A stretch of DNA of 64,000 nt. It comes from Candidatus Dormiibacterota bacterium (GTDB lineage Bacteria; Vulcanimicrobiota; Vulcanimicrobiia; Vulcanimicrobiales; Vulcanimicrobiaceae). Shown in pieces: positions 50,829-56,169 of this stretch. Location: positions 1 through 64,000 of the forward strand of contig DATKQG010000009.1 of assembly GCA_035532835.1 (NCBI GenBank), in the 5' to 3' direction. A program made the translations under genes and the position numbers. The notes under the pieces are model-generated. The model saw only the letters and a program-made list of their open reading frames with translations, did no database searches and was not told the origin of the DNA. Positions within the stretch are counted from its first letter, which is position 1. Each line of letters starts with the position of its first letter.

Positions 50829-51206
50829 ATGGGCATGATGAGCATGCAGCCCTGGGAGCCGCGCTTGGCCCGGTTGGAGGGGTCATTCGAACAGATCGAC
50901 CACCGGCTGAGCGATCTGGCGCAAAACATCGAGGCGCGCTTCGCCCAGGTCGATCAACGGTTTGGACAGATCGATCAGCGATTCGGGCAGCTAGAGGCCC
51001 GCATCGACGGGCTCGATCGAAAGATCGATGGCGTTCGCGACGGGCTAACGGCGCAGCTCGACGGCGTTCGCGACGGGCTAACGGCGAAGATCGACGGCGT
51101 TCGCGACGGGCTAGCGGCGAAGATCGACGGCCTACAGTGGCGGATGACCGCGTTGATCGTCGGGACATGGATCACGACGATCCTTGCCGTGCTGTTCCAC
51201 CGTTAA
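50829..51206 (+). CDS. Coiled-coil protein with C-terminal membrane anchor and 11-residue repeats
   Basis: A 125-residue protein. Residues ~10-100 form a continuous coiled coil, with Asp/Gln/Arg-rich heptads followed by three near-identical 11-residue repeats (consensus DGVRDGLTAKI), encoded by a 33-bp tandem DNA repeat at 51027-51125. A C-terminal helix (LIVGTWITTILAVLFH) would anchor it in the inner membrane. Hendecad repeats of this kind form straight helices. Function unknown; copy number may vary between strains. Confidence 0.72.
   Translation: MGMMSMQPWEPRLARLEGSFEQIDHRLSDLAQNIEARFAQVDQRFGQIDQRFGQLEARIDGLDRKIDGVRDGLTAQLDGVRDGLTAKIDGVRDGLAAKIDGLQWRMTALIVGTWITTILAVLFHR
51027..51125 (+). 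repeat. 33-bp tandem repeat, three copies
   Basis: Units 51027-51059, 51060-51092 and 51093-51125 are near-identical (a few substitutions, e.g. GATGGC/GACGGC at the start and CAGCTC/AAGATC at the end). They keep the frame and code for 11-residue coiled-coil repeats. Confidence 0.93.
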
Positions 51207-52174
51207 GAGGGCAGTTCGCGCAGGAGCGAGAGCCACAGACGACGCTCGCGCGCAGGGCGCACCAGCGCGGCCAGCGCACGAACGCGCCGCCGCAACGCGA
51301 GCGCGAATCGCGGGTCGCGCGCGAAGCGTTCGAGTAATGCCGCACACGCGGCGGTATCGCCTACGGGGTAATAGCCCGGATACGATGCGCCCAGGATCCC
51401 CCGATTCCCGGAGATATCCGAAGCGACAACCGGGACGCCGGCAGCGATCGCCTCGCTGAGCACGTTGGCACCTCCTTCCATGCGCGACGAGAGCACGAGC
51501 AGATCGCTCTGCCGCAGGATTCGCAGCGCGCGTGCGTGCGTGACCTCGCCGAGCCATCGGTACCGTGCATCGGCGCGCGCGATGCGCTCGGCGGCACTCG
51601 CAAAGCGCGGCTGCAGGGCCGCCCCGGCTTGAATGACGCGAATCGGTACGTCGCGCGATAGCCTCTGCAACGCATAAGCCGCGCGCAACGGGTCCTTCTC
51701 GTATCGCAGATGCCCGAGTACGCAGACCTTCAGTCCCGCGCGACGCGATACCGCGCCTGTCCGCGCGGGCGACGACTGCACGATCGCGCGCGCCTTCGCT
51801 CGGACGGCGCGCGGGAGATAGCCAATACCGTCCGGCTGGAGCGTAACGATCGCATGCGCGGCGCACATCGCGCGCTGCGCGAGCTTGCTGCTCGCGATGT
51901 CACGATACAGATCGGTCCCCGTCATCACCACGACGAGCGGACGGTCGGGGAAGGCGCGCGCAAACGCGAGGGCCGAACGAGCGCTCTTACGGGCGTGTAA
52001 TGCCACCAACACGTCGCAGGCTTCTCCGCCCCAGCGCTCGCGCACGCGTACGCGCCAGCCCCCGGAGCGAAAAAAAGACGCGTAGCGAGCCGCGGTATGC
52101 GCGTTTCCGGTCCGCGCCGTGGCGGCCGTGGGAGCGATTATGACGATCGTTCGCGAATGCTTCCGTATGGTCAC
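51203..52174 (-). CDS. senB: SenB-type selenosugar synthase (glycosyltransferase)
   Basis: A 323-residue GT-B glycosyltransferase of the SenB family. Strong matches are VMTGTDLYRDIASSKLAQ, LKVCVLGHLRYEKDPLRAA, DARYRWLGEVTHARALRIL and LLVLSSRMEGGANVLSEAI. SenB condenses selenophosphate with a UDP-sugar to give a selenosugar, the selenium donor in selenoneine synthesis (established for Variovorax SenABC). It starts at GTG 52174 and is divergent from senA across only about 48 bases. The next genes, selD and senA, complete the SenABC set. Confidence 0.88.
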   Translation of the reverse strand: MTIRKHSRTIVIIAPTAATARTGNAHTAARYASFFRSGGWRVRVRERWGGEACDVLVALHARKSARSALAFARAFPDRPLVVVMTGTDLYRDIASSKLAQRAMCAAHAIVTLQPDGIGYLPRAVRAKARAIVQSSPARTGAVSRRAGLKVCVLGHLRYEKDPLRAAYALQRLSRDVPIRVIQAGAALQPRFASAAERIARADARYRWLGEVTHARALRILRQSDLLVLSSRMEGGANVLSEAIAAGVPVVASDISGNRGILGASYPGYYPVGDTAACAALLERFARDPRFALALRRRVRALAALVRPARERRLWLSLLRELPS

Positions 52175-52222
52175 AGGCCGCAGATTCGCCCTACCGCACG
52201 TTCGCCCTCGGGGAAGAGACGG

Positions 52223-53488
52223 ATGCTAGAGACCAAAGCAAGCTCGCCCATCGCCCAAGCCTTACGGGACGCCCGCGCGCGGACGCTCGCATACGTCGCG
52301 GATCTGCGTGACGAGCAGTACGTCGTCCCCATGCTCGACGTGATCAATCCGGTACTCTGGGAGCTGGGGCACGTCGGCTATTTCGCCGAGTTTTGGACGC
52401 TGCGTCAGTTGCGCGGACGCGCGCCGCTCATCGAGGGCGCCGACCGCCTCTACGATTCCGCCAAAATTCCGCACGACGATCGCTGGACGCTTCCACTCCC
52501 CACGCGCGAGCGAACGTTCGCGTTTTTGGCGCAGCAACTGGAAGAGATGCTGGAGCGATTACCGGCGACGGATCTTGCCGCAGCCGACGCATACCTCCAC
52601 CAGCTCGCGCTCCATCACGAAGACATGCATGCGGAAGCGTTCGTCTATACGCGCCAGACACTCGGATATCCGCGTCCGGTCATGCCGTACCGCAGCATCG
52701 AACCTGCCGGCGGCCTCGAAGGCGATTGCGCGGTTCCGGGCGGCACGTATCGCATCGGCGCCCGTCCAAGCGACGGATTCGTGTTCGACAATGAAAAGTG
52801 GGAGCACGACGTTACGCTCGCGGCGTACGCCATCGCGCGCGCGCCGGTAACCAACCGCGAGTACGCGGCGTTCGTTGACGCACGCGGATACGAAACGCGG
52901 ACGTACTGGAGCGATGAAGGCTGGGCGTGGCGCGAACGCGAGGCGGCCGAGCATCCGAAGTATTGGCGCCGTAACGACGGGGCTTGGGAGCGCTGCCACT
53001 TCGATCGCTGGAGCGCGCTACGCCCGAACGAACCCGTCGTGCACGTCAGTCTCTATGAAGCGCAGGCCTATTGCGCTTTCGCGGACCGGCGGCTGCCCAC
53101 CGAGGCCGAGTGGGAGGTTGCCGCGACCGGGGGCACCCATCGCCGGTACCCGTGGGGTGAAGCGATGCCGGCGCCCGAGCGATGCAATCTCGACGCATGG
53201 TACGGCGACGTCGTGGACGTGGGTGCCTTCGAGAGCGGCGAGAGCCCGTTCGGCGCGCGCCAGATGATCGGGAACGTCTGGGAGTGGACGTCGAGCGCGT
53301 TCGGCCCATACCCGGGGTTCGCTCCGGATCCGTATCGCGAGTATTCCGAGCCGTGGTTCGGCAACCACTACGTCCTGCGCGGCGGCGCGTGGACCACGCG
53401 CGGGCGATTGGTGAGCACGCGGTGGAGAAATTTCTACCGTCCGCAACGCCGCGACATCATTACGGGGTTTCGGACGTGCGCGCGATAA
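52223..53488 (+). CDS. senA: SenA-type selenoneine synthase (EgtB-like)
   Basis: A 421-residue protein. The N-terminal DinB-like metal domain has HVGYFAEFW and the HxxxHxE motif in LALHHEDMHAEAFVYTRQTL; the C-terminal FGE-sulfatase domain has VPGGTYRIGARPSDGF, NREYAAFVDARGYE, RRLPTEAEWEVAA and GNVWEWTSSAFGPY. This is the architecture of EgtB/SenA non-heme iron C-S or C-Se bond-forming enzymes. Its placement beside senB and selD makes SenA, joining selenosugar to hercynine, more likely than ergothioneine EgtB. EgtD, which makes hercynine, is not in the window. Confidence 0.85.
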   Translation: MLETKASSPIAQALRDARARTLAYVADLRDEQYVVPMLDVINPVLWELGHVGYFAEFWTLRQLRGRAPLIEGADRLYDSAKIPHDDRWTLPLPTRERTFAFLAQQLEEMLERLPATDLAAADAYLHQLALHHEDMHAEAFVYTRQTLGYPRPVMPYRSIEPAGGLEGDCAVPGGTYRIGARPSDGFVFDNEKWEHDVTLAAYAIARAPVTNREYAAFVDARGYETRTYWSDEGWAWREREAAEHPKYWRRNDGAWERCHFDRWSALRPNEPVVHVSLYEAQAYCAFADRRLPTEAEWEVAATGGTHRRYPWGEAMPAPERCNLDAWYGDVVDVGAFESGESPFGARQMIGNVWEWTSSAFGPYPGFAPDPYREYSEPWFGNHYVLRGGAWTTRGRLVSTRWRNFYRPQRRDIITGFRTCAR

Positions 53489-53540: not shown

Positions 53541-54587
53541 GTGACCAAAGCCGATATCCTCCGTTTGACGCACCTCTCCGCTTGCGCGGGTTGAGCTGCC
53601 AAAATGGACGCCGACGTCCTCGCGCAGGTTCTGCGCGGCTTACCACCCATCGACGATCCCAACGTCCTGGTCGGCACATCGACGGCCGACGACGCAGGCG
53701 TCTACCGCGTGAACGAGGCGCTCGCGCTCGTGCAGACGGTCGATTTCTTCACGCCGATCGTCGACGACCCATACACGTTCGGCGCCATCGCCGCGGCGAA
53801 TGCGCTCTCGGATGTCTACGCGATGGGCGGCACGCCGGTCACGGCGCTGGCGATCGTCGGGTTCCCCGAGGATCAGGATCCGGCGGTTCTGCATGAGATT
53901 CTTCGCGGCGGAGCCGAGAAGGCGCGCGAAGCCGGCATCCACGTCATCGGTGGCCACACGGTCAAGGATGCGGAACCGAAATACGGACTCTCGGTTACCG
54001 GTTTGATCCACCCCGAGCGGATCATCCGCAATTCGAGCGCGCAAGCCGGCGACATCCTCTTTCTCACCAAAGCCATCGGCACCGGAATCCTCACGACCGC
54101 GCGCCGCCGGGATGCCATCGACGACGCGGCGATGGTGGAAGCGATCGTTTCGATGTCGGCGCTCAATCGCGCGGCCGCCGAGGCGATGGACGGCTGCGAC
54201 GTGCATGCGGCAACCGACGTCACGGGGTTCGGATTGATCGGTCACTTGCGCGAGATGCTCGATGGAGCCGGCGTGGGCGCGGATATCGATGCCGACGCGA
54301 TTCCGTTCTTCCAAGGCGTGCTCGCACTCGCCCAGGACGGCGTCGTGCCGGGCGGCACGCGCACGAACCTGAGGCAGGCGCTCGCGAACGGCGTAGCGTT
54401 CGACGATCGCATCGACGAGAGCCTACGGCTGGTGCTCTGCGACGCGCAGACCTCGGGAGGTTTGCTCGTGGCGGTTGCGGCCGAACACGCCGAACGCTAC
54501 GCGGCTCGCGCACGCGAGCTGGGCGTGGCGATCGTGGCGCGCATCGGCATCACGACCGCCACGACCGGCCTACGCGTTCACGCGTGA
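53541..54587 (+). CDS. selD: Selenide, water dikinase, predicted selenoprotein (Sec at TGA)
   Basis: Reading from GTG 53541, the first 17 codons give LTHLSACAG, then TGA (53592-53594), then AAKMDADVLAQVLRGLPP and a complete SelD: DPNVLVGTSTADDAGVYR, VQTVDFFTPIVDDPYTFG, AAANALSDVYAMGG and VHAATDVTGFGLIGHL. The TGA is codon 18, the catalytic Cys/Sec position (Cys17 in E. coli), followed by the conserved Lys21. A hairpin at 53621-53637 is a SECIS candidate. SelD makes selenophosphate, the substrate for SenB and for Sec-tRNA. Without Sec the gene would lose its glycine-rich active-site loop, so TGA readthrough is the best explanation. Confidence 0.88.
53621..53637 (+). promoter_or_regulatory. Candidate bacterial SECIS hairpin of selD
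   Basis: A perfect 7-bp stem CGCGCAG-GTT-CTGCGCG begins shortly after the selD TGA; the loop lies 33 bases after it. The apical part GCAG-GTT-CTGC is close to the E. coli fdhF SECIS top (GCAG-GT-CTGC). Bacterial SECIS elements sit in the coding region just after the Sec codon. Confidence 0.6.
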
Positions 54588-55663
54588 AACCCGGGAATCA
54601 CCGAGACGATCAACCCCGCGAGTAATCCGGCCAGCACCACCGCCCCGGCGGCCATCGCCAGCACGCGTTTCGGAAACGCGCTGCGTACGATGTAGAGCGA
54701 AGGCAGGCTAATCGCGGGAAGCGTCACGAGCAGCACGGCCGCCGGCGCGACGCCCAGGCCGAAGCCCATTAACGTCTGCACGATCGGCACCTCGCCCGCC
54801 GTTGGAATGACGAAGAGCGTGCCGACGATCGCGAGCGCGATCAGCACCAAGATACTCCCGCCCGCAAGCGTGAGCCCCGGATGGAAGAGCCACGTGCGCG
54901 CGGCGCCGAGCAGCAGCACGATCACGACGTATCCGGGAACGATCGTATAGATCTCCCACCAGAGCAGGCGCAACCAGTCAACGAGAAGATCGAGCCCGCC
55001 CTTGCGCCCATCTTCGATCGGCGCGTCGTCTACTTCCACGTCAACCGGATCTTTGACCAAACGATTCGCCAGCGTCGCCGCGCCGAATACCAAAACGATG
55101 CCGACTAGCAAACGCACCAACATGAGTTGCCATCCGACGACGGCCGCGATGAACACCATCACCGCCGGATTAAGGGTGGGGCTACCGAGAAGAACCGCGA
55201 GCGCCGAGCCCGCCGATGCGCGCTGTTTGCGAAGGCCCACTGCCAGTGGACCGGTGCAGCACGTTCACATCATCCCGCCGAGCGAGAGCGTCCCGGCAAT
55301 GGCGATGGAACGAAAATCTCGCCCGGAGAACAGCTTGTGAATCCAACGGCGCGGAACCAACACTTGAATGGTGGCGCCGAGCACGAGCGCCAACGCCAGC
55401 GCCTGCCAAATCGCGTTATAGTACGCGAGCGCATACTGCCATGCAGCCGCGAAGCTCGCCGCCGGCGGCGCGGCGGACTTGCCCGAAACGATCGACGCAC
55501 CGATCGAATGATGCGTGAGCGCAAGCAGGCTCTTAGCATAATACGGGAGCCACTTCACATAGAGCAAGCCGAGTACGAGCGTGAACGCGAAGATCGCAAA
55601 CCCGGCGATCAACCGCCCGTGGTTCACGCCCTCGCGTTCGGTCGCCGTTGAAGTCATCGACAT
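54578..55663 (-). CDS. DUF318-type permease, predicted selenoprotein (Sec at TGA)
   Basis: One open frame from 55663 to 54578, interrupted only by a TGA at 55267-55265 (codon 133). Before it are a signal-like helix and ~4 membrane helices ending GTLSLGGMM; after it the protein continues TCCTGPLAVGLRKQRASAGS and then LLGSPTLNPAVMVFIAAVVGW, with a second half PTAGEVPIVQTLMGFGLGV and LPAISLPSLYIV, all DUF318 hallmarks. Related permeases carry CTCC at this point, so the TGA replaces the first Cys, giving U-T-C-C. A SECIS candidate follows at 55234-55252. GGAGG lies 6 bases before the ATG. It is convergent with selD (10-base overlap). A selenium-compound transport role is inferred. Confidence 0.72.
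55234..55252 (-). promoter_or_regulatory. Candidate bacterial SECIS hairpin of the DUF318 permease
   Basis: On the minus strand an 8-bp stem GGUCCACU-GGC-AGUGGGCC has its loop starting 20 bases after the TGA. A short loop with G at its first positions at this distance fits bacterial SECIS rules. It overlaps codons of the conserved GPLAVGL segment. Confidence 0.55.
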
Positions 55664-56169
55664 CGAGTACCTCCACGAACAAAGGGTAGGATATGCATCC
55701 CAACCCGTCCGGTTCGCAGAGGGTGGCAGGGGTCCCGCGCCCGTGCGTGTAGCCGTTGGCTGAAGAGCGCTGGCGGGCTACGCCGGGGAGACTATACAAG
55801 GGTCACCAAACGTCCGGGCGCCATGAAAGGGCCGAACGCGCTTTAACGACGCTTTGTCTTCTAATAAGACACAGGATAAAAATTAGGCCAACCTATAAAA
55901 CGTAGCCCTTAGTTTGACGGTGTACCGGAATTGGGCCCTGGCCCACTTCTCAGAAGGCCCTCCATCGTTTTCTTTTCGCGGCATTTTGGAAGCAGCAATC
56001 GTCTCCCGCGGCGTGGACCGTCTTTTAGCAAGCACTCAGCTCGCTAGGCCGCGATGTGAGCTCCTGACGATTTCGATGAAGCGCGCGTTTTCCACTGGAT
56101 CGTTTCGGGGTGGATCTCATGGGCACCACGGGCATCGCGGCAGCGCAGCCGGTCGCCTCCGCAAACGGT
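55664..56169. other. 506-base intergenic region, start of an AT-richer island
   Basis: No gene is supported here. Next to the permease start it holds the GGAGG RBS and the leader. At 55770-55786 lies CTGGCGGGCTACGCCGG, which matches the reverse complement of 58057-58073 except for one base. From about 55850 the DNA is AT-richer, with a TTCTAATAAGACACAGG stretch, unlike the flanking genome. No convincing promoter was fixed. Confidence 0.6.

Follow-up and report, generated by a model that had tools for sequence, protein, structure and literature searches.

The selenoneine cluster that Kayrouz et al. reportedly described in 2022 consists of senA-senB-senC, and SenA, SenB and a selD likewise adjoin the permease considered here; searches of the open-licence literature did not find a permease as a conserved part of that cluster. 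Escherichia coli YraQ (UPF0718, PF03773), a protein uncharacterised in the same literature, is about 42% identical to our permease over 311 residues, and an MM[C/U]TCC motif is common to both. YraQ has Cys rather than Sec in this motif (MMCTCC), however, and the neighbours of its Klebsiella homologue are not selenium genes. The SO_0444 family of Cu/Zn efflux transporters (NF033936) is related to the permease at the level of the Pfam family and has a UxC motif probably located at the same column, since distant homologues show CSCC there (in two of them the Sec column is the first Cys of CSCC). A transporter of this type, WP_014809615.1, has been catalogued as a UxC selenoprotein, although it is known only from its GenBank annotation (PMC13188914). 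Scored against NF033936, the permease reaches 44.7 bits relative to a cut-off of 300 and belongs to a different, distant subfamily. Its best NCBIfam match is SaoE (NF040736), the efflux transporter of the SAO organometallic system with its Sec-rich operon, but the score of 57.1 bits is far below the cut-off of 325 and no SAO genes were seen near the permease; the table of selenoproteins (PMC13188914) does not include SaoE. Finally, YedE/YeeE (PF04143), which is predicted to transport selenium and has a GUxSG Sec form, belongs to a different Pfam family. It is a membrane protein that co-occurs with selD and is sometimes a selenoprotein (PMC5322559, PMC13188914), and a deletion in Methanococcus maripaludis showed YedE to be dispensable with all the selenium sources tried (PMC11097638).

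The window, by which we mean the whole 64-kb stretch of DNA that was analysed, contains the following features.

51203–52174, minus strand: senB, selenosugar synthase (TIGR04348, 361.5 bits, cut-off 300).
52097–53488, plus strand: senA, selenoneine synthase (NF041186, 514.9 bits, cut-off 420).
53541–54587, plus strand: selD, selenide, water dikinase (TIGR00476, 393.3 bits, above cut-off); the start is probably GTG 53541.
53592–53594, plus strand: in-frame TGA, the selD Sec codon, in the context LTHLSACAG-U-AAK.
53621–53637, plus strand: proposed selD bSECIS, CGCGCAG-GUU-CUGCGCG, with its loop 33 nt after the UGA.
54578–55663, minus strand: putative Sec-containing YraQ-type DUF318/PF03773 permease, 361 aa, from ATG 55663 to stop TGA 54580–54578.
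55265–55267, minus strand: in-frame TGA, proposed Sec codon 133, at the first position of the [U/C]TCC motif.
55234–55252, minus strand: proposed permease bSECIS hairpin, 8 bp, with loop GGC (55244–55242) 20 nt after the UGA.

Adjacent SenA, SenB and SelD, all above their cut-offs, satisfy the criterion for a selenoneine (sen) cluster. Mechanical ORF calls start selD at 53604, past the Sec codon, and so cut off the Sec residue; the same TGA is present in 11 other loci of the phylum, namely those in which the motif was read, and the hairpin (GUU or GUC loop, 33 nt) is kept in most relatives. Judged from these sequences, selD is itself a selenoprotein gene and part of a senA-senB-selD selenoneine cluster. 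An earlier reading made from the DNA sequence alone (the sequence-only reading) had already remarked on an adjoining Sec-type selD; the gene is indeed there, and the description is now corrected to include its own Sec codon and its membership in the cluster.

The permease ATG at 55663 is preceded by GGAGG at 55674–55670, and its frame contains a single in-frame TGA (55267–55265, MM-U-TCC), being otherwise open to the TGA at 54580–54578. The read-through product matches PF03773 (ArsP_1) over residues 83–354 with 89.7 bits relative to a cut-off of 32.3, in agreement with the sequence-only proposal that two same-phase frames parted by one TGA make up one DUF318 permease. Full-length similarity and the MM[C/U]TCC motif, which together define the YraQ-type subfamily, are both present. 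About 45 TGA joins flanked on both sides by 80 or more codons occur in the window, and the join alone is thus no evidence for a Sec permease; what raises this TGA above chance is the homology across it, the same TGA in relatives, and a covarying hairpin.

The permease was found in 23 of the 149 searched genomes of the phylum (Candidatus Eremiobacterota), with TGA at the column in 12 and TGC or TGT in 11, and, normal ends aside, no extra stop was counted in the aligned part. The 12 TGA genomes span 51–98% protein identity, and selA is present in every one. A scan of 84,980 species yielded 80 permease loci, among which TGA occurs in Eremiobacterota and in two MAGs, one of Candidatus Rokuibacteriota (L096) and the other labelled Bacillota (L109); all the rest have Cys. 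Searches of the phyla to which L096 and L109 are assigned added further TGA genes in G262, G265 and G266 and in G178 and G180, respectively; with just 43 genomes in the phylum searched for L109, the Bacillota label is doubtful. TGA permeases are thus found in 19 genomes forming three groups: the phylum (12), a rokubacterial group (4; G149, G262, G265, G266) and a third group (3; G150, G178, G180), with selA confirmed in G149 and G150. In all close homologues read, the column is Cys (TGC/TGT) or TGA and nothing else, and the TCC codons of the UTCC motif are invariant. The alignment thus bears out both the placement of the TGA at the first Cys of a CTCC motif and the expectation that relatives would share it. 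The exchange of TGA and Cys is observed directly: the permease tree needs six Sec/Cys changes, at least five of which are forced by well-supported branches. Cys forms also occur in selA genomes (e.g., G063–G069 and G086), and the exchange is thus not simply a matter of loss of Sec decoding.

Two genomes of the third group, G150 (L156/L163) and G178 (L157/L164), each encode a Sec and a Cys permease paralogue, with the Sec copy adjoining senAB and the Cys paralogue not; these are possibly a selenium-dependent isoform pair. Separately, the permease of L113, a contig labelled Candidatus Eremiobacteraeota, groups with those of Dyella and Rhodanobacter and, as there, is flanked by selA-selB-fdh, which likely reflects transfer or a mis-binned contig.

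The hairpin following the permease TGA has the sequence GGUCCACU-GGC-AGUGGGCC and a calculated energy of −11.1 kcal/mol. The published bSECIS model calls for a stem of 4–16 bp, a loop of 3–9 nt with G in its first two positions and located 16–37 nt after the UGA, and a minimum free energy of −7.5 or lower, and the 8-bp, GGC-loop hairpin at 20 nt noticed in the sequence-only reading satisfies it. Of the 15 distinct TGA sequences that are intact, 14 retain a perfect 8-bp stem and, 20 nt after the UGA, a loop beginning with GG. The loop is GGC or GGU in hairpin-bearing TGA genes, with L029 having the 4-nt loop GGUC from the same start, whereas none of the distinct Cys genes has the hairpin and at most six of the eight pairs form in that register. 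Between groups, three of the eight pairs are changed on both sides, and 100% of cells are paired. The observed covariation score of 0.436 compares with 0.201 for shuffled alignments (0 of 500 as high) and no more than 0.111 when the register is slid. None of the Cys peptides tested can be encoded by synonymous codons in a way that forms the hairpin, whereas the Sec peptides permit it; the RNA thus appears to constrain the permease protein. Eremiobacterota Sec forms read TCCTGP and most of their Cys relatives TCCTAP. The permease of G180 (L160), which has TGA at the Sec column, adjoins senA-senB and lies on a long branch in the tree, is without the 20-nt hairpin; the sole candidate in this gene, at 34 nt, is weaker.

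Ratios taken from computed dN and dS range from ∼0.03 (window versus same genus) to 0.3 on the 3′ side of the TGA, with similar values on the 5′ side, and by this measure purifying selection acts on the portion of the permease after the TGA.

Absence of the Sec machinery from the genome would have counted against the sequence-only reading, but SelA (498.7 bits) and SelB (320.8 bits) are both present in the genome containing the window, on contig C17. Complete tRNA-Sec(UCA) genes were found in seven relatives, one of them of the same genus. The genome itself has only a 38-nt 5′ half (C17:33516–33553; L150:1501–1538), which was found using the tRNA of a relative; Rfam gave other tRNAs only, a consensus pattern found none, and a pattern search for the 3′ half indicates that it is absent from the assembly. 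The break falls in the anticodon loop, past which foreign DNA, with a 189-aa hypothetical ORF, runs to the end of the contig; a phage search with the tRNA gave no match and is uninformative. Insertion of an integrative element into the anticodon loop of selC, with the other junction unbinned, is a possible explanation, and a strain-mixed or chimeric assembly would also explain the half tRNA. This is the main caveat for the genome itself, not for the permease family. In another genome, a selA match (G134:C21:69523–70815) has one in-frame TGA and is possibly damaged or misassembled.

We regard it as close to certain that the UGA at 55267–55265 is a Sec codon, and as highly probable that the gene encodes a full-length selenoprotein permease with a selenium-linked role, a judgement that excludes the identity of the substrate. 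SelB with tRNA-Sec would read this UGA as Sec, directed by the hairpin at 55252–55234. Those checks suggested in the sequence-only reading that could be carried out on sequence data all gave positive results. Incorporation of Sec is inferred, as there is no protein-level evidence for it, and the half tRNA-Sec of the genome itself, the hairpin-less TGA gene of G180 and the broken copy in G082 weigh against it.

An AlphaFold2 model of the permease, based on 26 sequences, predicts a membrane protein with a mean pLDDT of 89. In the model Sec133 is located at a break between helices 117–128 and 134–146, and a second conserved motif, PTAGE (287–291), is at a similar break between helices 271–283 and 291–300. 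The predicted order of helices suggests a two-fold repeat; profile comparison of the sequences of the two halves did not detect one. No solved relative was found by sequence, and none by fold in the PDB (best E 0.098). Sec would replace the first Cys of the invariant MM-C-T-C-C, which lies within the membrane domain where one helix breaks off and the next begins; there the selenolate, beside two thiolates, would be a good soft ligand and the soft cluster would bind the substrate in transit. This mechanism is inferred, again without evidence from the protein.

A Sel, Sen or MnmH gene is located within ∼6 kb of the permease in 58 of the 80 homologue loci, a count that overstates independence because the loci are rich in Paraburkholderia. 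Among the 149 genomes of the phylum, SenA and the permease occur together in 20, the permease alone in three and SenA alone in four (Fisher p = 5e-18, uncorrected for kinship). The selenium-gene neighbourhood is observed repeatedly and in different forms: the permease adjoins selA-selB-formate dehydrogenase in Dyella and Rhodanobacter and selD-mnmH in Paraburkholderia, where the loci are without senAB, and the TGA copies adjoin senA-senB in G150, G178 and G180 and selD in G265 and G266. Several homologues, in Enterobacteria and Paenibacillus, have no selenium neighbours. On a plasmid of Ligilactobacillus salivarius (L172), a YraQ-type permease adjoins YeeE/YedE, TusA, a rhodanese-like gene and prdA, possibly a selenium/sulfur trafficking cluster. 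In Clostridium carboxidivorans P7 (L080), a Cys-type permease directly follows tatC and an operon resembling DMSO/selenate-family molybdenum reductases.

We consider it highly probable that the permease works with selenium metabolism. On balance we favour a permease that moves a selenium species, inorganic or low-valent, through the inner membrane, transport being inferred from genomic association alone. The common need of the sen, sel and mnmH pathways is selenophosphate; a selenium species used at the SelD step or earlier is thus a more likely substrate than selenoneine itself, the Paraburkholderia loci being without senAB. A selenium substrate is not secured, because assigned family members are called metal or metalloid efflux proteins and several homologues lack selenium neighbours; like the mechanism, it is inferred in the absence of protein-level evidence. 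The direction is also inferred, and supply of selenium to SelD, though favoured over disposal of an excess, is put forward only tentatively.

A less likely function, though a serious rival, is that the Sec permease expels a soft metal or an organometalloid (arsenic, mercury, copper/zinc) in the manner of ArsP, SO_0444 and SaoE; selenium would then merely improve the ligand, and the selenium genes nearby would reflect the need for Sec. The Pfam family is ArsP_1, the closest curated NCBIfam models are the efflux transporters SaoE and SO_0444, and metal resistance is the role implied for most Sec-containing transporter proteins (PMC13188914). However, Cys forms, which need no selenium, also adjoin selD-mnmH and selA-selB, so that Sec synthesis alone does not account for the neighbourhood, and the neighbours examined, not all of which were annotated, revealed no gene for metal resistance next to the permease.

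If the substrate is selenium, the permease might instead vent excess selenide or a selenium intermediate, its full product being made only when selenium is plentiful and thereby providing built-in feedback. Efflux is the precedent in the family, dependence on Sec would suit a disposal pump, and the reductase-like gene and tatC next to the C. carboxidivorans permease can be read in the same way. Linkage to three users of selenophosphate (senAB, selAB and mnmH) fits supply at least equally well, however, and SelD, itself a Sec protein, has the same feedback problem; we consider export rather improbable without dismissing it.

That the TGA is a real stop, splitting the gene into 132 aa and a reinitiated piece, is very improbable: a GTG-started ORF of 220 aa does exist (55240–54578), but it lacks the UTCC motif, whose TCC codons do not vary, the break would fall inside a conserved motif, the covarying hairpin would be unexplained, and the Cys versions are single proteins. 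A nonsense mutation or pseudogene is scarcely credible, for although one relative, G082, has a copy disrupted just past the TGA (two matching pieces ∼1.4 kb apart with residues 142–302 missing; L040/L041, L069), the other copies are without further frame damage, the same TGA is present in 19 genomes of three groups, dN/dS is low after it, and at the level of the family conservation refutes this reading, as it rules out the split gene and a recoded genetic code.

Returning to the Sec-containing selenium permease, its novelty is partial. A 2026 catalogue of 119 prokaryotic selenoprotein (sub)families includes the SO_0444-type UxC transporter and lists neither YraQ nor a selenoneine-linked permease (PMC13188914), and searches of open-licence texts turned up no paper that links DUF318 with selenoproteins or selenium or, in any relevant sense, ArsP with selenoproteins. 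The sequence-only assertion that no Sec-containing member had been described therefore holds for the YraQ-type subfamily, within the open-licence literature, but not for the Pfam family, which already has a UxC member in a distant subfamily.

With the YraQ-type Sec permease the selenoproteome gains a subfamily of membrane transporters, and the selenoneine pathway a candidate transport component. Two papers of 2024–2026 state that prokaryotes, or organisms of any kind, have no known transporter specific for selenium (PMC13188914, PMC11097638). The broadest proposal, that selenium for selenoproteins, selenouridine and selenoneine reaches SelD through YraQ-type permeases dedicated to its transport, which in lineages using Sec bind their cargo by means of their own Sec, is speculative and in its entirety unlikely. 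The family adjoins genes of all three uses of selenophosphate and is a selenoprotein in several lineages, and is a good candidate for the long-sought selenium transporter.
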